Shown here: positions 7,819 to 27,705 of the stretch, one piece after another
Layout: every line of letters begins with the position of its first letter
How positions within the stretch are numbered: the stretch's first letter is position 1
Source of the DNA: a virus
Strand: one strand, 5' to 3'
Length of the DNA: 46,006 nt
IMG/VR virus record: IMGVR_UViG_3300037493_004786
Location: 1 to 46,006 of that record
The notes under the pieces: model-generated
What the model saw: the letters and a program-made list of their open reading frames with translations, nothing else
The model's database searches: none
What the model was told of the DNA's origin: nothing
Program-made: the position numbers and the translations under genes

Positions 7819-10800
7819 TTATTTTTCCTTAAAGACTGCATTATAAAAATCTTTAGTGTAATTCAATGGAGTAGCCGGTAATCCCGTTGAATTAGCTACA
7901 ACACTACCCATTTTAAAGAAAGCCTTATCAAAATCACCATCATAGATATGACCAAGAGCATCAGCCGACCTACTTACCAACGTTTGAAAAGGATGTTCCA
8001 AGTTTGCTGTCCATGGTGCATTATCAATCCTCGATTGAATCATTCTCGATAGTTCACCTAATCCCCAAAATGTACCTAAGTTATTAGTAATTAAAGTCAT
8101 TCTTGCAGAATCAAGCATTTCATCCTCATCATCAAACTTACCACGAAGCATACCTGAAAGTAAATCAATAGCCACTAAAGATAAACCAGTGTAAATAAAT
8201 ACATTAGTCATTGTTCCAAACATCCTCTTTCTATTTTCTTTTGAGGGATCCACCACAAAACGAATCATATCTTGCATCATAATGTTTGCAAGTTTACTTC
8301 TCGGTGAACCAAACATCGTAAAGATACGAGCAAGTGGATTGTTATAAGTTTCCAATTCAGAACGGCCCATCTCGTTATGAGTAGGTTGAGTCTTTTGAAA
8401 TACTTCTTCAGATCTTCCCGCTATATGTTGCCAATATTCTTGACTTCCTGGAACAAGTTCAGGATGTAAGTCTTCCGTTTCATGCTTTACAGCTTCCCAA
8501 ACAGAAGCCATCGTAACCGTATCCATGGTAATAATTCCAGCCATTAACCGCTTTTTCGAAACATAAATCTCGGTACCCGGAATTCTTATTTTATCATCAC
8601 CCGATTGTTGATCGTTAAAAGCCTCACCCGCCTCACGGTTAATAACACCTAAAGTTCTTCGGGCCAAAGTAGGGCTATATTGAAAAATCTCTTTTATAGA
8701 TGGATGATTTTCGTCATACTGCCATTCAACAGGAAGCATTGTTTTGCCATCTTTAACACCTGTATATTTCAAAGCCTTTATAACACCACCGGGTTTTATT
8801 CCAACCATTCCTCCAACTTTCCATCCAGCTTTTGCCAAATACTTTGCATCAATAGCAATCTTTGCTGCCATATATGAAAGTGGTTGCTTTAAAAGAACTG
8901 GAATGTTTGCTGACAAAGCCGACACAGCAAGGTTACTAGAAATCTTATTCATTGCATTTTCAAAATTCGATTCACCCTTTGAATTAAAAATGGTTGCCCC
9001 ATTTTCTATTCTATTAAGTGTTCCTTCAATCTGGTCAAAATAAATACTCATAGTTTTATCATGAGCATATTTCTTTTTAAAAGTTTCTAAAAGTTTACGG
9101 TTGTTACTTATTTCAAGAGCATGTGTAGCATAAAGAATAGAACTATTTTTGTATGTATTAAAAACACTAGAAGCATCACCAATAAGAACAGCCTTATCAC
9201 CACCTAAACGAGTTTTAGCAGAAGATAAACCCATTACTTTAGATTGACGTTGTTTTACATTTGAAGCTGCAGAACCAAAACTTACAGGAAAATAATTTGG
9301 CATCTTAGTCAAATCATAACCCATATCTTGAACATACGTTTTATTTACAGCATCATAAATAATATCTGTAGATTGATTTACTGATTCAATAATTTGTTTC
9401 ATTACAGGATCAGCTTCAATTGATTCTTTTATAGTAATCAAATCTTCTTTACTTATTTTATAAGCAGTGGCTAAACTAACTTCACGTCCAGGAATAGCAT
9501 CATTAAAATACATTCCATGTTTAACTAAAGCATCAGCTGGTGGTGGATTTCCATTTTTATCAGATGTTTGGCGAAGAATAAAATAAATATTTAATAATTC
9601 TTGATTAGTAAGTTTTACCATTTTTGGACCAGAACCATCATCCATCATTATTTCACGACCTACTAACTGGTCAATTTTTTTCTTACCTGAAGATATGTAA
9701 CCCCAATCATCAAAGTTTTTAGGCTTATTGGTAATTATATTTAATTTTTCATCTACAATCTGTAGTAATGCATCCATTTTTCTTTGTGCATTATTAAATG
9801 CTCTAACAAAGAAATTAGTAAAAGCGGTATGTTCACCACCAGACATAAGCATAGATAGTGTTTCCTTGTTTATTTGCAATGCAATTAATGCAGATTCAGT
9901 CCACTTAGCAAAATTTTGTAGCCATTTATACTTTAATTTTTTATATGTTTCAGCCTTCTTTGTTTCGGTAGTTGAAAATTCAGAACCAATAGAATCATCA
10001 ACATTTTTACGGTCAGTAATCTTTCCTTGATCGGTATAATACGATTGACTAATCTTAGCAGAATAAATCAATCGTTGTTGCATACGAATAAGCATATCGT
10101 AAACTTCAAGTTCTGGACCAGTAAGTTCAATTTCTTTATTGCCTTGTAATTTAAGAATGATATCATTTATTCTTTGGTTATCTAAAACATCAAAATATTT
10201 AATAACATCTTTCATTTCTTCAATAGAAAGACCATCAGCGTTACGATAAATACCATTTATTTTATCCGTTTCTAAAAGGTCAACCATTAATCTACGAGCT
10301 GTTAAACCAAGTAAATGTCTTTTATTAATATCATCAAATGCATCAGTTATTGGATCACCTAATTCTTTTGCTATTGAAAGACGAGCCATTTCAGGAGTGA
10401 TTTGATTTGCTTGTTCCTCTTGAAAGTTCCCCATTGTATTAAAAGAACCATTAAAACGGCTTTTAATTTTCTGTATCCAATTTTTAGATTTAGTATTTGG
10501 ATTTCCATTAGGAGTAACAGGAGTAGCCATAAAAGAAACTTCTCCAGTACCTACTGATTCAGGTCCTAATCTTTTTCCTTTAGCAAAAGCTTTAGCTAAA
10601 TCTTTTTTAATATTTGGATGTCCAAATAATGAACGAACCATATCCCAAAACTCACCAAGAAAATTGGTAAAATTACTACTCATCTTTTGACCTAAATAGT
10701 ACCGACCAATATAACGTACCAAATCTTCCTTGCCATAACGAGCAATAGCCTTCTGAACTAAAGGATGGTTCTGAAACATATCAATATAATGGTGAGCATA

Positions 10801-11280
10801 TTCATGAGGCGGTACCTCCAACTTAGCATCATTCGCCCAAGCAACAGCAGAAATAAAAGCATCACGATAATGTAATCCTTGAATATTTTCACCTATAGGA
10901 ACAAATAAACCATCGGGAGTAAGAATACCATTCTTCATGATTATTACCTCTGGGTACATTCTTTTAAGGTCGTCAATCATATCGTTTGCTATCTCAGGAT
11001 GTGATTCTACAGTAGCTTTTGTAAGCCTACTAGGAACAACATTCTCTCCATCGATATCCGATTCTTCATGATAGTAACCAGCATCATCAGTTTTTATACC
11101 ACGACCTTGAACTTTCATATCGCTAATCTGATCTTCTAATTGTTCAAGATTTGGAAATACATCTTCACTTCCATTTAGCTCTTGCCAAAGACCAATATGA
11201 GCAGCTACAACAACAGGATTAAGCCCAAGCTGTCTAGCCAAATCTGTTACCTCTTTACTATTATGATTTACACAACTCAT
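7819..11280 (-). CDS. large cargo/ejection protein with HEYAH zincin-like motif
   Basis: The preferred start is ATG 11280, which overlaps the giant gene's stop as ATGA and gives 1153 residues. An ATG at 11289 adds three. The N-terminus (MSCVNHNSKEVTDLARQLG, then AAHIGLWQELNG and FPNLEQLE) resembles the head of large crAss-like cargo and polymerase-associated proteins. HEYAHHYIDMF (H159, E160, H163) is a zincin-type metallopeptidase motif. The rest is mainly helical, with hydrophobic patches (LAVSALSANIPVLLKQPLSY; IYTGLSLVAIDLLSGML) that could insert in membranes. It is probably packed in the capsid or tail and ejected with DNA. Peptidase activity is untested; the fold may have a structural or maturation role. 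Confidence 0.7.
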   Translation of the reverse strand: MSCVNHNSKEVTDLARQLGLNPVVVAAHIGLWQELNGSEDVFPNLEQLEDQISDMKVQGRGIKTDDAGYYHEESDIDGENVVPSRLTKATVESHPEIANDMIDDLKRMYPEVIIMKNGILTPDGLFVPIGENIQGLHYRDAFISAVAWANDAKLEVPPHEYAHHYIDMFQNHPLVQKAIARYGKEDLVRYIGRYYLGQKMSSNFTNFLGEFWDMVRSLFGHPNIKKDLAKAFAKGKRLGPESVGTGEVSFMATPVTPNGNPNTKSKNWIQKIKSRFNGSFNTMGNFQEEQANQITPEMARLSIAKELGDPITDAFDDINKRHLLGLTARRLMVDLLETDKINGIYRNADGLSIEEMKDVIKYFDVLDNQRINDIILKLQGNKEIELTGPELEVYDMLIRMQQRLIYSAKISQSYYTDQGKITDRKNVDDSIGSEFSTTETKKAETYKKLKYKWLQNFAKWTESALIALQINKETLSMLMSGGEHTAFTNFFVRAFNNAQRKMDALLQIVDEKLNIITNKPKNFDDWGYISSGKKKIDQLVGREIMMDDGSGPKMVKLTNQELLNIYFILRQTSDKNGNPPPADALVKHGMYFNDAIPGREVSLATAYKISKEDLITIKESIEADPVMKQIIESVNQSTDIIYDAVNKTYVQDMGYDLTKMPNYFPVSFGSAASNVKQRQSKVMGLSSAKTRLGGDKAVLIGDASSVFNTYKNSSILYATHALEISNNRKLLETFKKKYAHDKTMSIYFDQIEGTLNRIENGATIFNSKGESNFENAMNKISSNLAVSALSANIPVLLKQPLSYMAAKIAIDAKYLAKAGWKVGGMVGIKPGGVIKALKYTGVKDGKTMLPVEWQYDENHPSIKEIFQYSPTLARRTLGVINREAGEAFNDQQSGDDKIRIPGTEIYVSKKRLMAGIITMDTVTMASVWEAVKHETEDLHPELVPGSQEYWQHIAGRSEEVFQKTQPTHNEMGRSELETYNNPLARIFTMFGSPRSKLANIMMQDMIRFVVDPSKENRKRMFGTMTNVFIYTGLSLVAIDLLSGMLRGKFDDEDEMLDSARMTLITNNLGTFWGLGELSRMIQSRIDNAPWTANLEHPFQTLVSRSADALGHIYDGDFDKAFFKMGSVVANSTGLPATPLNYTKDFYNAVFKEK

Positions 11281-14200
11281 ATTATACATTTAAGTTCGTT
11301 ATTTCTAACTTCTGAAGGCGAATTTACGAAATCTTGCATTGTCCAGCCACGTGCTATTAAACCTTTTGAATTTTCTGTCCACTGTTTATATGGATTTTGT
11401 TCAATCATTGCTTTAGCAAAAGTCATTTGTTCAGTAACTTCAGGTGCAGATTTAAGAACAGAATTTGTTTCAGTAGATTTAAGCGCTTCAATCAACATTG
11501 TTTTAGCTTTATCATAAATACCCGGATTAGTATGTTCTCTATTTCCAGCAACATTTAAAACCTGAATATTATTATTAACTAACCACTCAATTATTTCTTC
11601 TGCCGATTTAGGATTAACAAGTGCTTTTGGTTTACTATTTTGTGCGACATTTCCTAATGTTAATCTACCACCAGGAGAATCACTTTTACCAAACCAAATT
11701 GTTCCATCTGCTTCCTGAGAATTATCTATTGTTCTTTGATAATAAACATCATCATACGGCCCAAATTTACCTTCTCTTTTTGTAATTGAACCTTCTTTTA
11801 ATCCATATTTTTTAGCTAATTCAGGACTAAATATTTTTTTATCTCCTTTTGTAGATTGTTGAAATTTAGCAGCAGCAGTACCTCCTGTTGGAATTCCTAC
11901 TTCTAACGAAGCATCTAATCCAGCAACATCAACTCCAGTTTGTCCGCCAGAAATAATTTTTTTAACATTATGTTTCATAATTTCTTTTGGTTTAGTATCT
12001 TCCTTCATCAAATCATATTTAGTATAATTCTCTGTTTGTTCAAAACTTCCTTGGTCAATAGGTGAAATAGTAACTGGCATGGATTCAGTCAAAGAACCAT
12101 TAGCATCACGTGGAGCCGATTCTAACCATGATTTAATCGCTTCCATGTTTACTTCATAAGCAAGCTTTTTACCATCAACAGTTAGATTAAATGAAGTTGG
12201 ATTATTTGCATTGGCAAAATTAAAGAACGAACCATAGTCCATTGAAGATATTGTCTTTCCTACAAGTTCTAATAATTGCTCATTAGTATATTGACTACTT
12301 CCGAAATCTCTCATTTGAGTAGAATTCATTAATGACTTTAATCTAATGTTTCCTTTCGAATCAGCAAATTTATCGTAAACTTTCTTTTTCAATTTGAAAT
12401 TATTCAACTTACCCTGTAAAGACAACATTACATTCTTCTTTAAAATAGGCATATTCTTAGCTAGAAAATTTTTACCAAAAGCATTTTTATCTTTTACCTT
12501 ATTATGCTTAACAGTATTGTATTTCATAAATTTACTAAGGTCAATACCAATCTCAGTATTTTTTAAATCACGATAAGGAATCATATCAAACAATGTTCCT
12601 CTAGCATCTGAAGTACCATGACGTAAAACTTGATATTGTAATAATTCAAGTTGCACAGGCATTGGTAATTCAGAAAATGCCTTTTGAACCATTTCTCTAT
12701 AAGATTGTGAAGCGGAATAATAATCATTCCTTGGCTTAATCAAAGTAATCTCCTCACCAGACTTATTTGTTTTCGTTTCTACCTGTAAAGATTGAATGAA
12801 TAAATTATCCCCAATAGTTTTAATATCGGCTGGCAACGTTTCTAAAAACTCAATGTTTTTATTAAGTGCCGGAACTAATTCTTCATAAGCAATCTCACCT
12901 GAATTCTGCCATTCTAAAGCAATTCTTTTTAATTTACCAGTATCACTACTGCTTTCCTTAATAGCATTTGAAATCTCATTAAACCCAATATCTCCAGTAA
13001 CCATTGGTTCACCAGATGAATTAAGAATATCAAATTCTTTACCCTTAGCCATCTTCTGAGCAATACCAACCATTGATGATACTCGATTAATAAACTGCTT
13101 ACTATTTTCAATTGGCTTAGCTGAAATACCAAGAACTCTTTTTATTCTTTGGAATTCTTTATTCATGAACTTCTCGAAAAGAATGTTCAAAAAGACACGA
13201 TCAATTTGTTTCTTGATTTTATCCTCTGGCATTTTAAAGTTAGCCTTAATCTCATTATGAATAGAATTTACCTCATCAATATTTGTGATAAATCTATTCT
13301 TGTATAAATCATTTTCAGCTTTTAGAACATTGTAATAATGATTGAATAATGGACGTTCAAAAAATGTTCCTGTATCAATCTTGGAATTTCCTTTTTTAAT
13401 ACTCTCCATTTTTTCAAACTTCTGACGAGCCTCGAAACTACTGTTAGGCAAACTACCATCCATTTGTACAATGGAAGATAAATCAAAAACATCAGAAGCA
13501 ATAGCTTGTAATTCTACAAACTTTTTGATTATATCCAAATCCTTTTGTTCTTGACCAGAAATAAGTTCAGCTCGTTTAAATCCTTTCTTTCCATCAACAG
13601 TAACAGCATAAACATTATAACTTTTACCATTAAATTGATAAGTACCCGGAGGAAGACTATCAAATATAGGCTCAGTAAGTCCAGCCTCAAAAAGAACAGC
13701 TTTAGTTCTTTGATTACTGATATCCCTTCCTTCCATCTTTTTAACGTACTCTTCCAAAAGAGTTTTAGGAGATTTGCTATAATCAGTAGAATAAATATTA
13801 TTCGATTCATCAACCAACTTCTGATATCTTACGATAGCTGGATCAGTTAAGAATCCAGTAATACTTTTGTTATCTACACCTAACTGCAAAAGCAAAGAAG
13901 CAACACCTAAATTATTTTGATTAACACCCATACCCAAAATGTACGGATCCTTAATCATATCAACAATAGCCTGAACGAACAAAGCCATATCCTTAAACTG
14001 CTTTCTTGTAAAATCAGAAAGATATTTATCTGTACTAAACTTTCTTTCCTTACCATCAAACTCGTAATTAAAGCCAATAGGTGCTTTTAATTTAGCTCCC
14101 ACCTGAGAAAGTACATTCATCATCTTCATACCAACAGCAGCCACACCAATACCATCCTGAGCAAAGTTCATTTTAGACTGAGTGGTAGCCATATCAACAG

Positions 14201-17200
14201 GATTACTCACCGTATAAGAATTGTCATTATAAAGTTCAGCCTTTTCTAAGAACTCTTTAAATTCATTTGAATCAACAGATGTTTGTGCCTGTTCAATATA
14301 TTCAGGTTTTGACATTTGATTTAAAAAGAAATCTACAATTTTATTTGCAGCAGAATCTTTTGTTGTACCTGATTTATCAATATCTCTACGATAAACAAAA
14401 GTTTTATCACCATCGTTATCTGCACCAGCTTTATCCATAAATTCTTTTGGAAGAATACATGTATTTGAATCGCCATCAATAAGGTATTTTACACGACCTC
14501 TAAATCCTGACATTGGACCAGAAGCTGGAACACGAACAACAGCAACATCACGAAGGGATGGATTGTTTCTTAAATTTTCCTCAGCCTCTTCACGAGTTTT
14601 TCCAAACATTGACCAAGGCATTCCTACTTCTGGAAATTCTTGCTTACCATCTACAGTTCTATACCATTTTAAATCGGCACTGTAGTTAGGAATGTTATGC
14701 AAATACTGTCCAGGAATTTCTAAACGAATACCATCACGATGTAATGATGAAGCTACCATTTGCTCCATAATATGTTTCATCTTAGGATGGTCAGCCGTAT
14801 AAGCAAATTCATCATTTAATTCTGAAATCTTTTGATTAGCATCTTTGATTTGTTTTTCACTAGAATCTTTATTATTCTTTATTTCATAAGCATCATTCAA
14901 TTGTGCTTGTATTGTTTCATTCCATTTAACAATCTCACGCATCAACTTAGTTATCTGAGAATCCTTTCTATCACCAGAATCATCAAGCATCTTCTTAATG
15001 AAATTTGTTTTACTGTTAAGGTCTTTGTATGTATCAGACTTAGAAATACCTTCTCCATTTGGAACACCAAGATTAGAAAGCAATGTTTCAACAATACTAT
15101 TTTCAAAAGCAGTATTATCCTCATTGGTAGAAAAACTTTGAAGAATTTTTAATAACTGAGTAGAAGCAACAGACTTTTGTTTATCAATTTCTTTTTCAGA
15201 AATATTTTTAGTCATATTAAAAGGAATACGATAACCATTAAAATCAGTGGTCATTGATGATTTGTTTACAGCATCAAGGTTTCCATTATTTACATTGGTC
15301 ATAAAATCATTTAAGGTCATGATATTTCCTTTGGAAACTTGTTGCGTTCCCTTCACAGCCTTACTATCTACAATCTTAATCTTTTGTTTCTTTCCTGTTT
15401 TTTGTTCAATCAAATTTTCAAGTTTAATAATAGCATCACCAATATTTTTATAATTAAATTCAGAATCGGTATCTCCATTTAATTCAGCTAAAGAAGTTGT
15501 ATCTCCATTTCTGAAAGCATTCACCGAAGACATTTTTAAGAACAATGATTTACCGTCAGGCTGAACTTGAAAAACAACGTCCTTCATATTCAATCCAACT
15601 TTATCAAGTGAGCCTATTTTTTCTTTAATAAAATCAGCTAAGTAAGAACCATTGATTGACATTGAATCCGACAATCCCTGAGTATCTATTACGATAACCA
15701 TTACATCTGGAACTTGCACTAAAGTACCATTACTTGTTGCACCACCGGCACGCTTGATTACATCAAATGTATTTTTATAATCAGCCATTTGCCCAATAAG
15801 AATATCGGTAGCATAAATACGATTGATAGTATCATTCAATAGGAAGTGTCCAATAATTTTCTCAATATTGGGAACAACCTTTCCATCAACAGTTTTCTTA
15901 TAGTCAAGAGTTGAATGTTTATTCATGAACATAGCAGTAAACGTATGTTCCATGTTTGTGTTTTTCAAAATCTGTTTAATGGAATCAATAGCACTTTTTA
16001 TTAAATCATTTCTACTATAAACTCCCTTATCGTAAGGGCTTAAAACTTTACCATCAACAACATCAAAAAGAGAAGTATTTTTAATCGTTTCAATAGTCTT
16101 CGCTTTGTCTTTTGATTTATCCAATAACTCCTGAAGGTTTGATTTGATATTATTCAATTCATTTTTTAATTGTTCATCAGTAGTATATCTTGTAGCTGAA
16201 ACAGTGAACATCATATCACGATCAGCATTAATCATTGGATTTTGTTGATACTCGGTTTCAGAGCCAACAGAATAATTGATAAGTGCATTCAGCAACATAT
16301 CTGTTTCTGTAAACTTACCATACTCCCTAGACTTATTCGTTTCAATATTCTCTACACCATCTAAAATTTGGTAACTAAACTTTCCATTAATAATCTTCTT
16401 AACCATTGGATTATTTTTGTACAGTTTATTTTTAAGCATTTCTGCTTGGTGCTTTAAATTCGTTCTTATCAAACGAGAGATGTCAGACAAATAATCACCT
16501 AATGAAATAGATGGTTTGTTTGCACCTGTAACACCGATAAATCCAGCCGACAATTCACTAATATTATCTGAAGCCTCAACAATACCTTTTATGTAAGAAT
16601 GAATATCTGGTTTATCACCATTGTATCTATTTACATTCTTAACGGCACGAAGTATATCAGACATCATGTTTGTCTTTTTTTGAATAACCTGTCTTTTATA
16701 TTCTATTGGATTAGTAGCTTTTAAATTAGCTGGAATTTTTCCAAGTAAATTATTATTGATATACTCAGGAGTAATCTTAATTTGACTACTTGCAAGGATA
16801 TCATTTATTGCTTGAACAAACTCTTTAAAATTACTTTCTAAATAATCATAAACCTCTTCAGTTTGAGCATCAGTTAATCCATTCTTATCATAATATTTTA
16901 ATGGTTCTAATTGCTCATCTTTCGGTAAAAATTTATCCTTTGGACGAATTTCCATGATACCATTATCTTTGATTAAAAAATATTTTTCTACTTTACTAAT
17001 AACTTCATTAAAATATGTTTTAAAATCACTTTTGAATTCTTTTAGTTGATTCATTACATCGGTAACTGCACTTACAATCTTCTCATTCTTATTTTGAATT
17101 TTAGAAAATACACGAGGAAGCATTACAGTATCTTTAACTGTATCACCTTCTGAATATTCACCTGATTCAAGTTCAGCTTCATTAGGAGAACGAAAAATAA

Positions 17201-20200
17201 CCGTTTCTTTATTTTCAATAATGTGAGCATTACTTTTTTCCTGAGCCAAAGAATGTAGTTCCGTAACAAATGATTGTCTAACATCAGGAGTACTTTCTAA
17301 TTCTTTAAATAATTCAGATAAACGAACAGATTCAATACTTCCATTATTTCTAGCATCCTCATTAATCAATTCAACTAAATCATATCCCTGTTGGTTAATA
17401 TCAGTGATGTATTTTGTAACATTATCCTTACCGATTAAATGACCTTCATCATCAACCAATGAATTAATAACAGAAGTGATAGTATCATTTAATGCTCTTA
17501 ATCTTTTTACAGCACTAGCACTATCTTTTGCAATTATATCTTTACCATCTTCATCAAACTTAATCTCAGTATTTGAATTTGCTATATTAGTTGCAGCACG
17601 AGAAAGTCTTTCATTAACTTGTGGATTAGTTGATATGAATGCCATATTAAAAGCATTCTGGTCTTTTACCTCATCACCAGTAGGAACATAATTTATATTA
17701 TTAAAACCTTGAATTGTTCCTTTTGGATCATCCTTAAATTCTCTTTCGAAAGTTCTTCTAAGTTCAGATAAAGCAAAAAGATAATATACACTTGGATCAC
17801 GAGGATTAATATCTTGTCCTAAATAATCATTGTTATACATCATTTCAATTCTACGAAGCATCATACTATTTACACCAACATCCATTAAAGATTTTTGGTC
17901 AGTATTAATACGCATCTCTGCATTTGTTCCAGCCAATCTTCCAATAGGAACATTGATTGACTGATTAGCAAAAGTCATTGAATCAGAAAGTAACTTTACA
18001 AAATCAGGAGCAAGCGTTTTAGGAAATAAAGCTTTTACTTTAGTCCAAAATCTAGATAACCAATCCATAAACTTACCAAGTCTACCATTATTAAAATTAC
18101 GTGTTAAAGAATCAAGAGAAGTTTCAGCGATAGCTTGTACCAACGCTTCTGTTAGTTGCTCTTCACGAGTTTTATCGGGATAGGTTTCTTTTGCCCACTG
18201 GTCATAAAGAGTTCCTTCAACGGCTTTTAATCCAGCTTTAACCCATGGATGATTTTTACCTAATAATTCTACAAAAACGTGAGCATACTCATGAATAATT
18301 GTAGATTGTCTAGCGTTTTTTGGATCAATTTCAATTATTCCTTCAATTAAACGACCAAGAACTCTTGGCCCACCATTACGAAGCATTTCATTTAATGTAC
18401 GAACAGGAACACCTGGAAATATTTTTTGAAAATGTTTAACAATACGTCCGTACAATTCAGGATTTTCAGAAATAAGAGAATCAACTGTTGAGTTTGGAGT
18501 ATATGTTCGTTGCTCTTTACTCTTACGAGGTTTTCTTGATTTAACAGGAACTTTTTTATTCGGCTTGATTAACTTTTTAAGTTTTTCATCCGAAGGGAAC
18601 ATGTCTAATTGACCAGAAGGTTCTTCTACTTTTTGTTCTTCAATTGGGGGTTCTTCTGTGTATTTATTTACTAGATGTTTATCATAATCTTGATAAATAA
18701 CTTGCTGAAGATCTTTTTTTATTTCTTGAAGTTGTTCTTCGTTATATGCTATAAAACGGTAAGCTTTACTACCATAACCAAATACTCCAATTTTATTAGC
18801 AAAGTTTAATAAATCTTTTTGTAATTTTTTAGGAAATAATCTTAATTTATTTAGCCTCTTTGCATCTTTAATAGCACTATCAATAACTTCATCTAATTCT
18901 TTAAGTAATTTTTTACCTTCTTCAGTAACCGACTCTGATGTTAATTCTTCAAATTTAAGTGGTTGAAGTTCTTGTTCATCTTTTTCAACCTGTTCATTAT
19001 TTTCAGTCTGTTGATTTTTTAAATCTTTACCTTTTTTCCAATTTTCTAGTATTTTAAAAAAATCAATTTTATTATTTCTCCAAACAGCTTTTACAAGAGT
19101 AGTACCTTGTTGTTTCATGTAATCAGAAACAGACTGTTCATCTATTCCCCAATTATCAACAATATCTTTTATATCATCTAGTAATAAGTTTTCTTTACCA
19201 TCTCTATCTAAATTAGTATTTGAAAAATTATCTATAGTTTCAGATACTTCTTCAGATTGTATAATATCATTAATCTCTGATGCAAATGATTCGCCTTCAT
19301 CTTCGTCTTCTTCAATATCTTCAAGTCTTCCCTTGTCAGGACTTATTCCCATTTTTTCTTGCAAAGCAATTTCCTTTTCAAACTCTGCTATTTTAGCATC
19401 TGTTTCAGGGCTTTTTTTACCTTGCTTCATTAATTCAATTTCAGCTTTTAGTTCATTTATTGGACGAACCATTGCTTGTTTCACTCTTCGTTTCTTAGGC
19501 TTAGAAAATGATTCACGTTTTTTAGAAATCTTTTCCATTAACTCAGGAGTATATAAATTTTCCTTTGTTGACTGGTCAGTAATAGCATCAAGTTCTTTTT
19601 CAGAAACAGCTTTGTCAACTAAATCAGAATATTTATTTTTAGGAGCAACATTTTTTTTCTTATCTCTCCTTGTTTTTTCTTCTTTAGCCTGAGAAAGAAA
19701 AAAATCTTCCTCTGAAGTACGATTTTTAGTTTCAGACAATTTTTTAATTGCCATATCAAGTGATGAATCGGAAGCATCTTTATAAGAATTATTTTTTTCT
19801 TCCCACTTTTCAATCGATTCTTTACTTGCTTTTTTAAATGGAATATTTTTTATTCCAGCTTTTTTATATGCAAGATAACGATGATGTCCATCAACAATAT
19901 GTTGTTTACCATCATTGGTTTCAATTGTTTCAATTGATTCAATTTCTTTTCCCGCTTTAATTGATTCTACAATTTCATCAACAATCTTTTCATCCTTTGT
20001 TTTTAAATCTTCAGTAGGAACAAAATTTTCTATTGGAGCAGTAGTAACTTTTGGTTCAGCTTTCTTTTGTTTTGCATCATTCCATTCTTTCTCTGCCGTT
20101 GGCATATCATCATACATTTCAGCTAAAGTATCGTAAGATTCACCATATTTAGCTTCAAGTTCTTTTTTACCTTTTTCTTTTTGAGCTTCATCAGTTTGGT

Positions 20201-22079
20201 CAACAACACTTTTCTTTACATCATTCATCACATCTTCAAAGTTGTTGTCATCAACAAACTTTTTAGAAACCTTCTGTCCTTTTATAGTAACAGATTCATC
20301 AGCACTCATTGTTCCTTGGGCTTTCTGTCCTTTTGGTTGTGGAGCAATCTTCTCTGAACGTAATTTCGCAGCATCTTTATTATATGCTAAGCTTTCCAAT
20401 TCAGTAGCTAATTGTTCTGAAGTAACTTTATTCTTTGCAACTTTTTCGTACAAACGAATATAACCATTCATTTTTTTATCGAACTCTTCACGATTACCAG
20501 TAGCCTTACCTTTTTCAATAATCGTTTCCATCTCACCACTTAATTGAGCAGTGATAGCTTTTGCTTTATCTTCACGAACCTTATATGATTTTGTTAAAAC
20601 AGGATTATCAACAAGCATTCGTGCTCCCTGTAATTCCTCTGTTTTTTTAATTGTATTATCAGTTTGATATAATTGATACAATTGATAATTTGAAATACCA
20701 TCCATTAAAGGAATTCCTTTAGTAGAAACAGCAAACTTATACATATCATCAATGTATGAATTTATTTTTAAAGCCTCCTCCTGAGTATAATCCCCACTAG
20801 CTTGACTTTTTAAAACCATTCCTTTTAATGCAGCAACATTTTTAGAAGATCCTTTTTCAACATCAGTTTTTACAATGTTATATGCTGATTCTCCTTGAAT
20901 TCCACGACCTAAAAGTTTTGCATTAAAAAATGTTCCACCACCGCCCATAGAACCTCCAACAAGTCCACCAATCAAACCTCCTTCAACAGCTTTTAAAAAC
21001 GTATCCCAAGAACCAATACCTGGACCTTGAAATTTATTTTTTTCATTTGCTAAAGTAGCATTCCACATTTCTTTTGCACCTTCTTCAATATAAGTTTGTG
21101 CAAATTCTTGTGTACCTTCAACAGCCATACCTTCAAAAATTTTTGGACCATAAGCCCTCATTTTATTAGCATAACCTTTTAATGAAACAGGAATTGTATT
21201 AGTTAATGTTTCTGCAGTAAGACCTTTTTTTGAAGCTTCAAGTAAAGTTTCACGAACTGATTCTCTAGCGGCTTTTTGAGAAATAGGTTTTGAAATAGTA
21301 TTACCAATCCATTCTAAACCTACAACTTCAGTTGTAGAAATTAATCCAGCAACAGACATTGCATATCTCATTGCATCACCAGGTTCAATTCCAGCGGCTC
21401 TTGCTTCATCATAAACCATTGGGTACATTTGAGCAGTACCTGTCATAAATCCACCAACACGAGTACTCCATTTAGAAGTATTTACAGCTTTATTTACAAC
21501 ATCTAATGCTCTTACTCCTTGCCCCGCTTTTGCTATTGCAGAAGCACCACCAGCTAATTTACTAGCTGCACCACCACCAAGCATTATTGTAGCAACAGTA
21601 CCAATACCATTACCAAATCCGGCCCATAATCCAGCTAATCCTCCACCACCAAAAACACCTTTTTGACCAGCATCAGAATAATTTATTTCTAATCCATCAG
21701 CCCACTTATCTACATTGTTTACCCATTTATCAGCCCAACTACCTTCACCAGCACCAGACATTAATCCTATAGCACCCGGAAGAGCAGTAATACCTTCTAC
21801 AGCTTGTACACCAGCATTGTAAAAGCCACTCATAAAATCCATTAAACCACCTTGATTATTTAAACCACGTTCTTGAACAAAATCTTCTGAAAAACCAAAT
21901 TGCATTCCTGGCATTTCTCTTTGAATAACATCACGCATAGCCATAAGCTCTACGTCATTGCTAATCATATTTTGATTCATTTGTTGTTCAACACGAGCTT
22001 GCTCAGGACTTGTTTTTAATCCTTGATAATATGTGCCAGTATTTAATACTGGTAAATTATTTTCATTTTGTTCTATCAT
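11277..22079 (-). CDS. giant multidomain virion protein with crAss-type RNA polymerase core
   Basis: One open frame of 3600 residues. In order: Gly-rich hydrophobic segments at about 143-172 and 366-382 that could cross membranes; a ParB-like domain (about 685-755) with DGHHRYLAYKKAG at 730; long Lys/Glu-rich linkers; a zincin-like domain with HEYAHVFVELL (H1263, E1264, H1267) and a later EALVQAIAE that may supply the third ligand; a first putative double-psi barrel at about 2130-2185 (D2132-TQG, K2166, K2182); a second with RVPASGP (R2516) and ADNDGDKTFV (D2554, D2556, D2558); and a SLOG/cpYpsA-like domain from about 3374 to 3545 (GGQTG at 3378, NVAGNRE near 3510). The DxDGD aspartates bind the catalytic magnesium in multisubunit and crAss-type polymerases. 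Phage phi14:2 gp66 is the studied relative, delivered with the DNA to transcribe early genes. The neighbours are other cargo genes; its start overlaps the previous stop as ATGA. Polymerase is a strong inference; the roles of the other domains are open. Confidence 0.78.
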   Translation of the reverse strand: MIEQNENNLPVLNTGTYYQGLKTSPEQARVEQQMNQNMISNDVELMAMRDVIQREMPGMQFGFSEDFVQERGLNNQGGLMDFMSGFYNAGVQAVEGITALPGAIGLMSGAGEGSWADKWVNNVDKWADGLEINYSDAGQKGVFGGGGLAGLWAGFGNGIGTVATIMLGGGAASKLAGGASAIAKAGQGVRALDVVNKAVNTSKWSTRVGGFMTGTAQMYPMVYDEARAAGIEPGDAMRYAMSVAGLISTTEVVGLEWIGNTISKPISQKAARESVRETLLEASKKGLTAETLTNTIPVSLKGYANKMRAYGPKIFEGMAVEGTQEFAQTYIEEGAKEMWNATLANEKNKFQGPGIGSWDTFLKAVEGGLIGGLVGGSMGGGGTFFNAKLLGRGIQGESAYNIVKTDVEKGSSKNVAALKGMVLKSQASGDYTQEEALKINSYIDDMYKFAVSTKGIPLMDGISNYQLYQLYQTDNTIKKTEELQGARMLVDNPVLTKSYKVREDKAKAITAQLSGEMETIIEKGKATGNREEFDKKMNGYIRLYEKVAKNKVTSEQLATELESLAYNKDAAKLRSEKIAPQPKGQKAQGTMSADESVTIKGQKVSKKFVDDNNFEDVMNDVKKSVVDQTDEAQKEKGKKELEAKYGESYDTLAEMYDDMPTAEKEWNDAKQKKAEPKVTTAPIENFVPTEDLKTKDEKIVDEIVESIKAGKEIESIETIETNDGKQHIVDGHHRYLAYKKAGIKNIPFKKASKESIEKWEEKNNSYKDASDSSLDMAIKKLSETKNRTSEEDFFLSQAKEEKTRRDKKKNVAPKNKYSDLVDKAVSEKELDAITDQSTKENLYTPELMEKISKKRESFSKPKKRRVKQAMVRPINELKAEIELMKQGKKSPETDAKIAEFEKEIALQEKMGISPDKGRLEDIEEDEDEGESFASEINDIIQSEEVSETIDNFSNTNLDRDGKENLLLDDIKDIVDNWGIDEQSVSDYMKQQGTTLVKAVWRNNKIDFFKILENWKKGKDLKNQQTENNEQVEKDEQELQPLKFEELTSESVTEEGKKLLKELDEVIDSAIKDAKRLNKLRLFPKKLQKDLLNFANKIGVFGYGSKAYRFIAYNEEQLQEIKKDLQQVIYQDYDKHLVNKYTEEPPIEEQKVEEPSGQLDMFPSDEKLKKLIKPNKKVPVKSRKPRKSKEQRTYTPNSTVDSLISENPELYGRIVKHFQKIFPGVPVRTLNEMLRNGGPRVLGRLIEGIIEIDPKNARQSTIIHEYAHVFVELLGKNHPWVKAGLKAVEGTLYDQWAKETYPDKTREEQLTEALVQAIAETSLDSLTRNFNNGRLGKFMDWLSRFWTKVKALFPKTLAPDFVKLLSDSMTFANQSINVPIGRLAGTNAEMRINTDQKSLMDVGVNSMMLRRIEMMYNNDYLGQDINPRDPSVYYLFALSELRRTFEREFKDDPKGTIQGFNNINYVPTGDEVKDQNAFNMAFISTNPQVNERLSRAATNIANSNTEIKFDEDGKDIIAKDSASAVKRLRALNDTITSVINSLVDDEGHLIGKDNVTKYITDINQQGYDLVELINEDARNNGSIESVRLSELFKELESTPDVRQSFVTELHSLAQEKSNAHIIENKETVIFRSPNEAELESGEYSEGDTVKDTVMLPRVFSKIQNKNEKIVSAVTDVMNQLKEFKSDFKTYFNEVISKVEKYFLIKDNGIMEIRPKDKFLPKDEQLEPLKYYDKNGLTDAQTEEVYDYLESNFKEFVQAINDILASSQIKITPEYINNNLLGKIPANLKATNPIEYKRQVIQKKTNMMSDILRAVKNVNRYNGDKPDIHSYIKGIVEASDNISELSAGFIGVTGANKPSISLGDYLSDISRLIRTNLKHQAEMLKNKLYKNNPMVKKIINGKFSYQILDGVENIETNKSREYGKFTETDMLLNALINYSVGSETEYQQNPMINADRDMMFTVSATRYTTDEQLKNELNNIKSNLQELLDKSKDKAKTIETIKNTSLFDVVDGKVLSPYDKGVYSRNDLIKSAIDSIKQILKNTNMEHTFTAMFMNKHSTLDYKKTVDGKVVPNIEKIIGHFLLNDTINRIYATDILIGQMADYKNTFDVIKRAGGATSNGTLVQVPDVMVIVIDTQGLSDSMSINGSYLADFIKEKIGSLDKVGLNMKDVVFQVQPDGKSLFLKMSSVNAFRNGDTTSLAELNGDTDSEFNYKNIGDAIIKLENLIEQKTGKKQKIKIVDSKAVKGTQQVSKGNIMTLNDFMTNVNNGNLDAVNKSSMTTDFNGYRIPFNMTKNISEKEIDKQKSVASTQLLKILQSFSTNEDNTAFENSIVETLLSNLGVPNGEGISKSDTYKDLNSKTNFIKKMLDDSGDRKDSQITKLMREIVKWNETIQAQLNDAYEIKNNKDSSEKQIKDANQKISELNDEFAYTADHPKMKHIMEQMVASSLHRDGIRLEIPGQYLHNIPNYSADLKWYRTVDGKQEFPEVGMPWSMFGKTREEAEENLRNNPSLRDVAVVRVPASGPMSGFRGRVKYLIDGDSNTCILPKEFMDKAGADNDGDKTFVYRRDIDKSGTTKDSAANKIVDFFLNQMSKPEYIEQAQTSVDSNEFKEFLEKAELYNDNSYTVSNPVDMATTQSKMNFAQDGIGVAAVGMKMMNVLSQVGAKLKAPIGFNYEFDGKERKFSTDKYLSDFTRKQFKDMALFVQAIVDMIKDPYILGMGVNQNNLGVASLLLQLGVDNKSITGFLTDPAIVRYQKLVDESNNIYSTDYSKSPKTLLEEYVKKMEGRDISNQRTKAVLFEAGLTEPIFDSLPPGTYQFNGKSYNVYAVTVDGKKGFKRAELISGQEQKDLDIIKKFVELQAIASDVFDLSSIVQMDGSLPNSSFEARQKFEKMESIKKGNSKIDTGTFFERPLFNHYYNVLKAENDLYKNRFITNIDEVNSIHNEIKANFKMPEDKIKKQIDRVFLNILFEKFMNKEFQRIKRVLGISAKPIENSKQFINRVSSMVGIAQKMAKGKEFDILNSSGEPMVTGDIGFNEISNAIKESSSDTGKLKRIALEWQNSGEIAYEELVPALNKNIEFLETLPADIKTIGDNLFIQSLQVETKTNKSGEEITLIKPRNDYYSASQSYREMVQKAFSELPMPVQLELLQYQVLRHGTSDARGTLFDMIPYRDLKNTEIGIDLSKFMKYNTVKHNKVKDKNAFGKNFLAKNMPILKKNVMLSLQGKLNNFKLKKKVYDKFADSKGNIRLKSLMNSTQMRDFGSSQYTNEQLLELVGKTISSMDYGSFFNFANANNPTSFNLTVDGKKLAYEVNMEAIKSWLESAPRDANGSLTESMPVTISPIDQGSFEQTENYTKYDLMKEDTKPKEIMKHNVKKIISGGQTGVDVAGLDASLEVGIPTGGTAAAKFQQSTKGDKKIFSPELAKKYGLKEGSITKREGKFGPYDDVYYQRTIDNSQEADGTIWFGKSDSPGGRLTLGNVAQNSKPKALVNPKSAEEIIEWLVNNNIQVLNVAGNREHTNPGIYDKAKTMLIEALKSTETNSVLKSAPEVTEQMTFAKAMIEQNPYKQWTENSKGLIARGWTMQDFVNSPSEVRNNELKCII

Positions 22080-23611
22080 TGTCCTTTTCCTGTTTCAATT
22101 AAACCTTGAGTAGTATTATTTGCATTCATAGTACCATTATTATAATAATCTCCTACCATTTGTTGTTGTTGTATATTGCCTATACTTGCAGCAGTATATT
22201 CATGTTTAGAATTAATAAGATTTCTTTTCTTATTAATACCTTGAACAGAAGATGCATCATTTAAAAATTCAGTAATAGGTACATAAATTTTACCTGTATA
22301 AACACCACCACCAATATTTGTATTTGTATATGTAAATCCTCTATTTTGACCTTCTGTAGAAATATAATCTACACCTAAAGTAGAAGTTGAAATTCCTTCA
22401 TGATGTGTGTCATCATCACCAATAGTAGTTAATTCAACACAAGGTTGTCCATTTATTTTTACATAACGAGTATAATCTAAAACATAAAGAGCATTTACAG
22501 CTGAAGGATCAACTTTTTCTCCATTTTGAAAGAAATAAGTTTTATTTGGATCTGCTTTATATTTTTGTCCAGCAGGAACAGAACCATCAGAATCTTCAGT
22601 TGCAGGATTTAAACCAATCATTACATCAATTAATTTATTTGTTTTCATATCGGGTTCAATAGGCCGTACTTCTCCATCAGACATTTGAAGTAATGAAGTA
22701 GCCCATTGATTGCCCATTTGATTTTCCTGACTTGCAGCCATATCAGCTCTCATTTTTTGCTCAACAGTCATTCTACTTGTAGTAGCATTCATACGACCTG
22801 TTTGAGCATTATAAACATTTAAATTATAATCACCCATATCTTTTGCTCCCCATCTCCAAACTTCACCACCTTGATCAATAACATTTGTATAATTTTTTGA
22901 TAATTGTGTAGCTTGTTCTTTACTTGCTCCTTTACCAATAGCTACTTCATAAATTTGTGAAGCAGTTACAATATTGTCTTTAGAGTAAGGATTAGTATGG
23001 TCTTTCATTGTTGCTTTAAAATCCATCATGCTTACATCAACAGGTTTTTCTGCACCACTAAATTGTAACTGGTCAATCTTACCTTCTTTAAACATTTTAT
23101 ATTGGTCTTCAAAACTTACTTGTTTAGGAACAACTTTTTTTTCTCCAGTAATAGGATCGACAACTTCCGATTCCATCATTAAAGGTTTTACATACATTCC
23201 TTTACTAGATGCATCCAAAAATAAACCAAGGTTCATTTTGTTATTAATTGCATTTTTAACTTCTTTTGATTGTAATACAGAATTACGATAATCAGATAAA
23301 TCTGAAATACCACCTACATTAACATATCTTTTTAAATCACCATTGTATTTAGCAACACCGGCATAAATCTTTTTGCGAGCATCAGCTTCAATAGTTTTAA
23401 CTCTATCTTGGTCTTCAGCAAGAACATCCATGTTCGCAAGAGTATCGAACATTTCAGTCATACGAGCTTCAGTTTCTTGACGTTGCTTTAAATCATTATC
23501 TAAAGCGGCACGATGTCTTTCTAAAGCCTGAGTATTAACTTGTTGGTCAGCACGTTTTGATTGCCAATCATCTTTATATCTAAGTGCGGAATAAAGTCCA
23601 AAATCTGCCAT
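22076..23611 (-). CDS. cargo/ejection-type protein, helical N-terminus
   Basis: A 511-residue protein. It begins MADFGLYSALRYKDDWQ, and residues about 20-110 form a long charged helix (RHRAALDNDLKQRQETEARM) suited to a coiled coil. Next comes a region with NNKMNLGLFLDASSKG and a beta-rich second half. A pattern of 'L.A.D..RI..I...AR..I..GIA..NGD..RY...GG...L..YR..VL.SKEV..A' is typical of the conserved protein next to the virion polymerase in crAss-like phages. I infer a capsid- or tail-internal protein ejected with DNA. Its stop overlaps the polymerase start as ATGA, so the two should be made together. It has no membrane segment or enzyme motif. Confidence 0.7.
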   Translation of the reverse strand: MADFGLYSALRYKDDWQSKRADQQVNTQALERHRAALDNDLKQRQETEARMTEMFDTLANMDVLAEDQDRVKTIEADARKKIYAGVAKYNGDLKRYVNVGGISDLSDYRNSVLQSKEVKNAINNKMNLGLFLDASSKGMYVKPLMMESEVVDPITGEKKVVPKQVSFEDQYKMFKEGKIDQLQFSGAEKPVDVSMMDFKATMKDHTNPYSKDNIVTASQIYEVAIGKGASKEQATQLSKNYTNVIDQGGEVWRWGAKDMGDYNLNVYNAQTGRMNATTSRMTVEQKMRADMAASQENQMGNQWATSLLQMSDGEVRPIEPDMKTNKLIDVMIGLNPATEDSDGSVPAGQKYKADPNKTYFFQNGEKVDPSAVNALYVLDYTRYVKINGQPCVELTTIGDDDTHHEGISTSTLGVDYISTEGQNRGFTYTNTNIGGGVYTGKIYVPITEFLNDASSVQGINKKRNLINSKHEYTAASIGNIQQQQMVGDYYNNGTMNANNTTQGLIETGKGQ

Positions 23612-23651: not shown

Positions 23652-26600
23652 TTAATTTTTTTCCCATCCTTTTTCGTATTGTTCACTTACTCGTTTTTTT
23701 ACTTCATTATCTAAAGCCTTTAATAACCTTTCTTCTTTACGTTTAGGATATTTTTTAGCAATAATATCAGCTATATCTTTTTTGTGATAATCTGTCTTTA
23801 TTATTCCCTGATAAACTTTTTCTTTAATATAATTATCCGTCTTGTCAGTCCTTTTACCTAAATCAAGTTCTACATCTCTTTCTTTTTTTAAATCTTTTAC
23901 TGATTTTTTAATATCAGCATCAGTTTTATCATTAACAACAGGGATTTCAGAATCTTTAATTACTTCTGAATTATCATCAGTTCCTATATCAGTTCCTAAT
24001 TCTTTATTTAACCAATCATATGTAGGTGAATTTTCACCAGAACCAATAAATTCATCATTTTCATTAAATTGTGTGTCAGCCCACGTTTCTTGTTCGGCCA
24101 CTAATTTATCTAATAATTCCTTACGCTTTTCTTTTACTGAATTAATCTTTGCTTTTGTTATTAAATTTGCTTCTTCATTGTCTGAATTTGCCATTTGAGA
24201 ATTAAGGTCAGCAATTTGCGTATCTAATTTTTGAGTAATCATTTCTTTTGATTTCGTAAACTGTGAAGTATTTACAACTGAACTATAAATAGGTTCACCT
24301 TTTTGAGCCATTGCTTTTATTTGGTCAACATTCATACCATTAGCAAATGGTCCTGTTTCAGATTGTGAAGCAATTTGTTCAGGAGTCATTGCAGTCATTG
24401 AACTTTGACCAACAATTTTTGTTCCATCAGGACTTAATTCTTGACTTGTTATATTATTAATAATTCCAGAATTATATTCATTCATTGATTCGGGAGAATA
24501 TAATTGCTCGTTAGCTTTTTCAGGTAATGGTTTATAATTTGAACCTTCTGCAGTAATTACAGAAGCAGAATTTGCTCTATCTAATTCTTGTTGGTTTTTT
24601 GTGATTTCATCTTCTATAAATCTAGCTGAACGATCACGCATATTTGCTGAAGCATCTTTTAATGCTTGATTATCTAAAGCAACATTTTCAGTTAAATACT
24701 TTTGATATTCATACATTTGAGAACCTTTACCATAAGCATTTTCAAATTGATTTCTATCACCAATATTTGTTAAAGCATCAGCAACAAGTCCAGCACCCGC
24801 TGTCTTGTCCATCATTGCTTGATTATAAGTATTTTGAAATTGATTTACATTTATTTCTTCATTAGCACTAGCAGCAGTTGCAAATTGACTCCAATTTTGA
24901 TTACGCATTAAAGCATCTTGTGCTGCAATTTTCATATTTCCTTCTTGGAAAGTATTAGCAGCACGACCAAGATTAGCCATAGCATTACCAGCTGAACCAC
25001 CCGCAAGACGATGAATATTTTTTACATCGTAAGCATATCCAAGTTCGTTTTGTGATTGATAATAATCTTTTACTTGTGGAAGCATACCCATATCTTTACG
25101 AGCAGTAGCATCATTAATATATTTTTGAAACTCATCTGTTTGTTTATATGTAGGAAGTTCTTTATTTGCCCCTTTCATACCAATAACTACACGAGCTAAA
25201 TCCATACCATAACCAAGAGCATCACGCTTTGGTTGTGCATCTGGAGCATATTCAAATTCTTTTTCTTTATAATTTTTTAAAGTGTCAAGAGTAGCTTTAT
25301 CTTCATCAATCTTTTTTTGAAGTGCTTCTTTATCGGTAGGTTTATTTTTAAATATTACTTCACCACCTTCAGTATAAGTCATGTCATTAGCAATACCTTT
25401 TTCATCAACAACAACAGAAGTATTTGGTCCACCAACAGGTTCAGCAGTTCCAGGAGTAGTAGTAGAAACCCTAACAGAAGCACTTCCACTACTACTTGTG
25501 CCATCAGGATTTTGTCCATTAGCATAATTTGAATTACCATCTACTCCTTTTATTTCTTTAGACCAATTATCAAATTGTTTTTTTAAATCTTGATATCCAA
25601 TAGGACCTTCCCAATCAAAATTAGTTTTATTTGTTTCATTAATAAAAGTTTGATGTTCATTAATAGTAGATTCAATTTTTTGTCGTTCAGGATCATCAGG
25701 CTTTAAAGTAGCCATTTTAACTTTTAATTTTTTAATTTCTTTTTCACTATTGTTTTTTTGATTTTCTTCAAACTTTGTTTTTATAGGAATAAAAAAATCA
25801 TTATTAAGATCATTAAAAATAGCTTCTTTTTCTTCGCCTGAAGCTAAATCTAAATTCATAATAGATTGCATAGCTTCAATATCCGCATCAGTTACTTTTT
25901 CAGTATTAATTTTTTCATTTACATATTTAGCTTCTTCTTTATAAATTTTATTAAATCTTGCATTTTCACCTGAATGATAACTTAATGATCCATCTTTATC
26001 TCTAGGAATTTTATAATGATGGTCGGTATCATCACTAAAAATATATCCACCATAACCAATAGGAACAAATTGACTGTCTTTGTCAATTTTATATTGCTTA
26101 ATTGTTCCATCAATTAATTTAACCTTTATATTTTTTGTTTTACCATCATCATTTATTTTTTCAGATAATAATTCTGTTTTATTTGTATTACTCATAGTTT
26201 TATTATTTTCTAATCCTCTTGAATGAACAATTGGTTTATTTTCTACAACAGTTACAAGTTTATTTTTTTCAGCAGAAGGAATATCAGTAAGTTTTTTTGA
26301 TTCTGGTTCAGGTTTTGACTCAGTAACTATTTTATCAGCAGTTTTAGTTTCTATTTCTTTATTAGCATTAGTTACTTCTTTATTAGCAGTAGTCTTTGAA
26401 TTATTTACAATGTCAGAATTAACTTTTAAATCTCCCGCAAATTTACCATACTTTTCAGCATTTGATTGAAAAGCTTCATTACCAGTTGAATTGACACTTT
26501 TAACTGTGCCATCAACAGTTTTCATTATTTCATTTACAGTATTAACACCACTATTTTCACCTTTTTGTTGATAAAGAGCATCCTTATCAATATCATTTGT

Positions 26601-27011
26601 GATAGACCAAACATATTTAGCTTTGCTTACATAATTAGGGTCAGTAGCATAACCACCCGCATGTATTAATGTTATTTGTTCTTCAGCGTTTTTTGCTTTT
26701 AATGATTTAGCATAATTAGGACTTGTAGTAATTAAATTAACATAACTATCTAATGAATCTTCAAATGAATTATTAGTTATAAAACTAGCATTTTCAGTGC
26801 CCATTTTACCATTTTTAAATTCTTTTGTAGATTGAATTTGGCCTTTACCTTTAATACCAAAAAAATTATTTCCAGGAGCGTATTGACCCCAGCCAGTTTC
26901 AATAGCCATTTGTGCCATTACTGTTTCAGGATAAATACCTGTTCCATTTACCCTTTTTGCTACAATTGGGTAATACTTTTTATAAAACTCTTTAGGGCTT
27001 AACTTAGGCAT
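23652..27011 (-). CDS. virion-associated muramidase: N-terminal glucosaminidase domain on a long cargo protein
   Basis: The chosen start is ATG 27011, two bases after the upstream stop; an in-frame ATG at 27038 lies inside that gene. The protein has 1119 residues. Residues 1-140 match the FlgJ-like N-acetylglucosaminidase family (PF01832, GH73). They include VMAQMAIETGWGQYAPGNNF with candidate catalytic E38, NNFFGIKG, and GGYATDPNYVSKAKYVW near 119-135. This domain cuts glycan strands, probably to open the cell wall for DNA entry. Residues 160-560 are low-complexity and charged, 600-870 are helical and Ala/Gln/Asn-rich, and the C-terminus is Lys/Asp-rich. That layout, plus its place beside the polymerase gene, suits an ejected protein. 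It could be a lysis enzyme, but the long non-catalytic part argues against that. Confidence 0.82.
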   Translation of the reverse strand: MPKLSPKEFYKKYYPIVAKRVNGTGIYPETVMAQMAIETGWGQYAPGNNFFGIKGKGQIQSTKEFKNGKMGTENASFITNNSFEDSLDSYVNLITTSPNYAKSLKAKNAEEQITLIHAGGYATDPNYVSKAKYVWSITNDIDKDALYQQKGENSGVNTVNEIMKTVDGTVKSVNSTGNEAFQSNAEKYGKFAGDLKVNSDIVNNSKTTANKEVTNANKEIETKTADKIVTESKPEPESKKLTDIPSAEKNKLVTVVENKPIVHSRGLENNKTMSNTNKTELLSEKINDDGKTKNIKVKLIDGTIKQYKIDKDSQFVPIGYGGYIFSDDTDHHYKIPRDKDGSLSYHSGENARFNKIYKEEAKYVNEKINTEKVTDADIEAMQSIMNLDLASGEEKEAIFNDLNNDFFIPIKTKFEENQKNNSEKEIKKLKVKMATLKPDDPERQKIESTINEHQTFINETNKTNFDWEGPIGYQDLKKQFDNWSKEIKGVDGNSNYANGQNPDGTSSSGSASVRVSTTTPGTAEPVGGPNTSVVVDEKGIANDMTYTEGGEVIFKNKPTDKEALQKKIDEDKATLDTLKNYKEKEFEYAPDAQPKRDALGYGMDLARVVIGMKGANKELPTYKQTDEFQKYINDATARKDMGMLPQVKDYYQSQNELGYAYDVKNIHRLAGGSAGNAMANLGRAANTFQEGNMKIAAQDALMRNQNWSQFATAASANEEINVNQFQNTYNQAMMDKTAGAGLVADALTNIGDRNQFENAYGKGSQMYEYQKYLTENVALDNQALKDASANMRDRSARFIEDEITKNQQELDRANSASVITAEGSNYKPLPEKANEQLYSPESMNEYNSGIINNITSQELSPDGTKIVGQSSMTAMTPEQIASQSETGPFANGMNVDQIKAMAQKGEPIYSSVVNTSQFTKSKEMITQKLDTQIADLNSQMANSDNEEANLITKAKINSVKEKRKELLDKLVAEQETWADTQFNENDEFIGSGENSPTYDWLNKELGTDIGTDDNSEVIKDSEIPVVNDKTDADIKKSVKDLKKERDVELDLGKRTDKTDNYIKEKVYQGIIKTDYHKKDIADIIAKKYPKRKEERLLKALDNEVKKRVSEQYEKGWEKN

Positions 27012-27012
27012 A

Positions 27013-27705
27013 TTATAAATAATTATCTGTTTGTGCAATCGTATTATTTGCAGTGAGATTTTTTAACTCTCTGTCATCTTCTTTCAAAAAACTGTCACTA
27101 GCAACAATACTATTTCCAATCGCACCAAAAATATTTCCAGACATCATATTTCCAATAGCATCTTTTGCTCCTGTATTTCCAGTAACTTTTTCATTCAATT
27201 TATTTAACTCACCTTTTAATCCAGCTTCATCACCAAGCAAACGAGAAATAAAACTTGTCTTCGGATCAACACCTAAATCTCCTGTTAATTTTTCAGCACC
27301 TCCAAGAATAGCATTAAATCCAGATTTTGCTTCTGCACCACCACCAAGCAATTTAGTAATTGCAGAACTACCTTTACTAAGTAAATTTGCTCCTGGAACA
27401 GTAGCTTTAGCAACTTGAAAAGCAAGTGCAGCTTTTGACCATCCCATAGCTGAAGCTTCATCTTGTGTTGCTTTCAAAATATCTTTAGATGTTCCATCAG
27501 CTACACCAGTAGCAATACGATGACGCATACCAGCACCCGCACCAATAGGATTCATGGCAAGTAATTTTCCCCAACCATTTTGTTCTCCTAAAGCATTGTA
27601 ACCAAGTAAAGCCATCATACCCTTACCTTGACCCATTTTGGTTTGAGTAAGATTATCATATCTCTGTTGCTTACTTAATTGTTGATTATCTTCAAATAAA
27701 GCCAT
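27013..27705 (-). CDS. small Gly/Ala-rich virion protein, possible ejection protein
   Basis: A 230-residue protein. It starts MALFEDNQQLSKQQRYDNLT and has a Gly/Ala-rich, mildly hydrophobic stretch at about residues 28-70 (GKGMMALLGYNALGEQNGWG) and another near 100-135 (VPGANLLSKGSSAITKLLGG). These could be amphipathic helices that touch membranes, as in ejection proteins of podoviruses. It lies between the 1422-residue tail gene (six-base gap) and the muramidase gene. I do not recognise a named family. The position and composition fit a minor cargo protein. Confidence 0.65.
   Translation of the reverse strand: MALFEDNQQLSKQQRYDNLTQTKMGQGKGMMALLGYNALGEQNGWGKLLAMNPIGAGAGMRHRIATGVADGTSKDILKATQDEASAMGWSKAALAFQVAKATVPGANLLSKGSSAITKLLGGGAEAKSGFNAILGGAEKLTGDLGVDPKTSFISRLLGDEAGLKGELNKLNEKVTGNTGAKDAIGNMMSGNIFGAIGNSIVASDSFLKEDDRELKNLTANNTIAQTDNYL

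Follow-up and report, generated by a model that had tools for sequence, protein, structure and literature searches.

The window analysed here, the 46,006-nucleotide stretch of IMG/VR virus record IMGVR_UViG_3300037493_004786, encodes a 3600-aa protein whose middle part, judged from its sequence, is a deep-branching member of the known family of crAss-type injected polymerases, and not a new kind of polymerase. Very probably a deep-branching crassvirus packages this protein in its virion as an RNA polymerase, joined to accessory domains in one chain. Both its packaging and its activity as a polymerase are inferred from homology.

An earlier note on this DNA had proposed such a polymerase within a frame of 3600 residues. 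The frame is real and unbroken and lies on the minus strand: the ORF runs from 22079 down to 11277, and its ends share 4 and 13 bases with the adjoining genes, an operon-like arrangement. The main inference of the note holds because a profile match, an invariant aspartate triad, a structural match to PDB 6VR4, the deep crassvirus genome and the gene slot of the phi14:2 polymerase all bear it out. The protein was also described as a larger relative of phi14:2 gp66. This is true of its length (3600 versus 2180 aa), but the size is not exceptional, since other proteins of the family in crassviruses and near-crassviruses reach 4287–4946 aa. Lysine makes up 10.5% of the residues, and simple hydropathy indicated no membrane helices. 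The features of the window are collected in Table 1.

Table 1. Features of the 3600-aa protein and its gene neighbourhood (positions in the window)
Feature	Positions	Strand	Support
crAss-type RNA polymerase fusion protein, 3600 aa	11277..22079	-	ORF; held-out profile E 3.3e-35
ParB-like N-terminal domain, residues 693-754 (DGHHRYLAYKKAG)	19818..20003	-	phrog_1033 E 8.8e-8; Pfam ParB_N sub-threshold
Zincin-like metallopeptidase domain, residues ~1186-1398, HEYAH at 1263	17886..18524	-	HExxH; homologous stretches in relatives
RNA polymerase core, residues 1932-2931 (matched 1932-2119, 2227-2931)	13287..16286	-	Profile; AlphaFold2 model matches 6VR4
Expected DPBB-B location, residues 2120-2245, unrecognisable	15345..15722	-	Profile gap; B profile scores as for shuffles; pLDDT mostly <50
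Catalytic DPBB-A segment, residues 2516-2570 (RVPASGP ... ADNDGDK)	14370..14534	-	Invariant columns, 48 sequences; pLDDT mostly 70-90
Putative metal-binding triad DNDGD, D2554/D2556/D2558	14406..14420	-	Aligned to DFDID of gp66 1361-1365 and crassvirus homologues
KDPYI motif, residues 2710-2714, downstream core	13938..13952	-	Family-conserved VDxAKDPYI
cpYpsA SLOG domain, residues 3375-3531	11487..11957	-	PF12694 E 7.2e-22
1156-aa protein, second HExxH (HEYAHH, 162), phi14:2 gp76 slot	7819..11289	-	Weakly similar to zincin part of 3600-aa protein
511-aa upstream protein, cargo-gene position	22076..23611	-	Overlaps RNAP gene by 4 bases
1128-aa protein, N-terminal glucosaminidase	23652..27038	-	PF01832 E 4.4e-20
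Crassvirus muzzle protein	27712..31980	-	PF25731 E 5e-91
Crassvirus tail ring protein 1	31980..33152	-	PF24228 E 1.6e-26
Crassvirus tail ring protein 2	33568..34257	-	PF25702 E 2.5e-31
Major capsid protein	36736..38115	-	phrog_11589 E 1.5e-49; 27% to cr56_1
Portal protein	39285..41531	-	phrog_6547; 27% to crassviruses
Terminase large subunit	41528..43336	-	phrog_6681; ~26% to crassviruses

Homology and predicted fold of the core

Pfam and PHROG scans of the 3600-aa protein gave no polymerase match, phmmer against PDB sequences returned nothing useful and a DNA-level search of phages found no match. We identified 80 IMG/VR loci encoding relatives of the polymerase core and built a profile from 47 of these crAss-type polymerases, leaving the window protein out. 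As the HMM comparison proposed in the earlier note, this held-out profile matched residues 1932–2119 and 2227–2931 with an E value of 3.3e-35. None of 30 shuffled copies of the protein matched, and phi14:2 gp66, itself absent from the profile, scored 772 bits. The parts of the core recovered are the DPBB-A half, the bridge-helix region and the upstream helices. In blastp searches against giant proteins of crassviruses, residues 2479–2782 aligned with cr118_1 (E 6e-12 to ~1e-11), pairing RVPASGP with RIPTQG and ADNDGDK with SDFDIDK, and the short stretch 2071–2119 matched phi14:2 gp66 directly (E 9e-4).

When we looked for closer relatives, using as queries the 1156-aa protein, the last 2151 residues of the 3600-aa protein and the pattern VD-M-[IV]-KDPYI, we obtained only one 95%-identical contig or nothing. 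In that only close relative (L001, IMGVR 3300017747_003994) the core is ~95% identical and the triad, the flanking R and P and the KDPYI motif are kept; residues 863–1269 of its ORF, an unrelated segment of ~405 aa, stand in place of window residues 859–1114. The phage is probably marine, a guess made from the sample of this one close relative.

In order to compare folds, we modelled residues 1945–2945 with AlphaFold2 from a 48-row alignment of the window protein and 47 other sequences. The model is of modest confidence (mean pLDDT 57.7, pTM 0.59), with values mostly between 70 and 90 in the DPBB-A segment. Its top Foldseek match in the PDB was 6VR4, the phi14:2 virion polymerase (E 6.4e-12, probability 1.00), followed by E. 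coli beta' and yeast Rpb1 with E values near 0.01. VIA alignment to 6VR4 gave a Z score of 21.2 over 652 residues (rmsd 4.7), compared with 11.1 for P74 gp62, 9.5 for QDE-1 and ~9 for cellular beta' and Rpb1. The model thus supports a core fold like that of 6VR4, the DPBB-B part aside, although it does not stand apart from the sequence evidence, since the input alignment included crAss-type rows. In this model, a structure prediction of the kind suggested in the earlier note, the core best matches 6VR4 and no second barrel is recognisable.

The catalytic motif and the second barrel

Since DxDGD arises by chance in 6.3% of shuffles of the 3600-aa protein, the motif needed testing. RVPASGP at 2516 and ADNDGDKTFV at 2553 (D2554/N/D2556/G/D2558) lie where they had been placed, and D2554, D2556, D2558, R2516 and P2518 are invariant in all 48 aligned sequences. 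The previous description, that the Phe of the usual DFDGD is replaced by Asn, was correct as to the Asn at position 2, but crAss polymerases usually have DFDID or DFDVD. Position 2 is Phe in 47 of 48 sequences, with Asn in the window protein only, and at position 4 we find I or V in 46 sequences and G in the other two. The form typical of the family is therefore DFDID (as at 1361 of phi14:2 gp66) and not DFDGD, which occurs in a single row.

In a DNA pattern scan DNDGD also turned up in a small number of further phage giants, and two of these, L099 and L103, score against the crAss profile. Six others (L100, L102, L104, L108, L110 and L111) are phage giants that carry GADNDGDK, most with R[VI]P upstream, and gave no score with the crAss profile; they possibly represent another branch of single-chain two-barrel polymerases.

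The claim of a whole core in the middle of the protein stands as far as a mid-protein crAss-type core homologous to gp66 is concerned, but not as to its wholeness, because DPBB-B is unrecognisable both to profiles and to AlphaFold2. Nothing between residues 2120 and 2226 was matched by the held-out profile, and a dedicated DPBB-B profile gave −0.6 bits on the window stretch, a score equalled or bettered by 329 of 1000 shuffles; the same profile gave 67.6 bits with gp66 and 43.5 with L099. In AlphaFold2 models of residues 1945–2945 and 2064–2345 (pLDDT 43.5 for the latter) the barrel was again unrecognisable, with pLDDT mostly below 50. DPBB-B of the family carries three near-invariant lysines (in PLK, DKM and SAVK), and aligners disagree on which lysines of the window protein fill these columns. 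We considered three registers, namely K2166/K2182, D2167 with K2182 only, and D2167/K2182/K2211/K2243; no lysine register is supported, because the B profile gives no signal above shuffles and the aligners disagree. DTQG at 2132, K2166 and K2182 had been located correctly, but their proposed role in the second barrel is not supported: DTQG aligns before the barrel and the lysines fare no better than chance.

We presume that a second barrel would fold from residues 2120–2245 in a strongly altered form. It is rather unlikely, in our estimate, that this barrel has been rebuilt or trimmed with the family lysines moved or lost, in which case catalysis would rest on a changed active site combining DNDGD with a non-canonical DPBB-B. 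The same stretch raises the question of a degenerate polymerase, which would have kept DPBB-A and the aspartates, lost the DPBB-B lysines and come to serve in ejection, with a structural or DNA-binding role and no RNA synthesis. The DPBB-B stretch, ~40 residues shorter than its gp66 counterpart and undetectable, would fit such a decay, as would the change of the motif Phe to Asn and the result that the B profile matches no other ORF of the window. However, the triad, the flanking R and P and KDPYI, whose loss would be expected in a dead enzyme, are kept, also in the 95%-identical relative, and plausible though unstable registers place lysines in the family order; we regard degeneration as improbable.

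It is highly improbable that the core belongs to another two-barrel branch, either that of the GGADNDGDK giants or the P23-45 type, and reached a crassvirus genome by exchange. RVP...GADNDGDK is indeed common to the phage giants L100, L102, L104 and L111, and in some alignments their FLKF...GKLGAF resembles window residues 2164–2189. Against this, blast E values reach 1e-11 with crassviruses as opposed to 0.004–0.014, the Z score with 6VR4 is 21.2 compared with 11.1 for P74 gp62, and the gene order is crassviral. That some large structural protein of other descent merely carries the motif by chance, conceivable from the 6% of shuffled copies with DxDGD, is refuted by the ordered profile matches over ~900 residues (E 3.3e-35) and the structural match to 6VR4.

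Accessory domains and gene neighbourhood

The virion-packaged polymerase that we favour is unusual in uniting ParB-like, zincin-like and SLOG domains with the polymerase core in one chain, in having DNDGD for DFDID, and in its very divergent or shortened DPBB-B. The set of relatives contains 23 ORFs with stretches homologous to the zincin-like domain. Among the IMG/VR relatives, whose loci are fragments, a polymerase core shares one ORF with SLOG in L060 and L064 and with a zincin in L050 and L057; none combines ParB, zincin, polymerase and SLOG in one chain. In the polymerase–SLOG protein of L064, an RNase H domain follows SLOG (residues 2777–2973).

Judging by its genes, the genome is that of a deep-branching crassvirus related to the gut crAss phages. 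Where measured, the identity of virion-module proteins to those of named phages does not exceed ~27%, and Fipvunavirus (Flavobacterium phages) is about equally near in the capsid protein. The gene for the 3600-aa protein belongs to a cargo and transcription block beside the muzzle gene and takes the place that the virion polymerase gene has in phi14:2. From the muzzle gene through the cargo genes and the RNAP gene to that of the 1156-aa protein, the order is as in phi14:2 and Suoliviridae; written in protein lengths, the gene order [511][3600][1156] parallels [628][4946][1667] of cr118_1 and also gp78/gp77/gp76 of phi14:2. The latter three proteins were detected in virions by mass spectrometry, and crAss001 packages RNAP cargo proteins from equivalent genes (PMC10172136).

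By analogy with phi14:2 and crAss001, the 3600-aa protein would be stored in the particle, pass through the tail with the DNA in an at least partly unfolded form and refold in the host, where the polymerase would transcribe early phage genes with Mg held by D2554, D2556 and D2558. The chain may be processed into its functional parts by the zincin domain, and DNA or nucleotides may be the targets of the ParB-like and SLOG domains during entry.

Comparison with known systems

With this protein the known range of the injected crAss-type polymerase comes to include a lineage distant from the gut families, and the extent of possible drift in the two-barrel core is illustrated; if active, the protein would show how much change DPBB-B and the DFDID motif can tolerate. 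The solved polymerase of phi14:2 (gp077 in GenBank, gp66 in the literature; PDB 6VR4) resembles it in having a homologous core, DxDxD followed by K and the same gene slot, but has 2180 aa, no HExxH in the chain, DFDID where the window protein has DNDGD, and a recognisable DPBB-B with the three conserved lysine positions.

The closest annotated relatives of the core are single-chain giants of Suoliviridae, cr118_1 (4946 aa), cr50_1 (4774 aa) and cr109_1 (4328 aa), with blastp E values of 1e-11 to 1e-6 and ~24% identity; they differ in having DFDID and a normal DPBB-B. The giant multidomain form was already known in crassviruses (PMC7886860). In their records, the crAss-type polymerases of these three phages and of cr130_1 bear the labels 'DNA helicase', 'exonuclease V' or 'DprA-like' and are therefore hidden from annotation-based searches. 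A complete crAss-type core (profile E 6.5e-212) also occurs in a 5491-aa ORF of a Chitinophaga sp. YR573 scaffold (L116, 3726716–3747204). As this is a bacterial chromosome scaffold of 4.83 Mb, the find suggests an integrated crAss-like element. The uncultured IMG/VR relatives compared were L017, L060, L064, L050 and L057, the last four with the SLOG or zincin joins given above.

Polyvalent proteins, as Iyer et al. termed them in 2017, reportedly unite several enzyme or DNA-binding domains and a zincin in one packaged protein. The window protein has ParB-like, HExxH and SLOG domains and, if packaged, may fit this description.

Pairing of a virion polymerase with a metallopeptidase has been described in N4 (PMC5512222) and for the tape-measure vRNAP gp96 of P23-45 (PMC10770324). 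The ParB–zincin–RNAP–SLOG chain is a further case of this pairing in unrelated phages, and its recurrence hints that such polymerases have processing or delivery as a common requirement. P23-45 gp96 and N4 vRNAP resemble the window protein as virion polymerases inside giant proteins with a metallopeptidase, but among two-barrel enzymes gp96 falls into a separate group, and the N4 enzyme is a T7-type polymerase that is not homologous.
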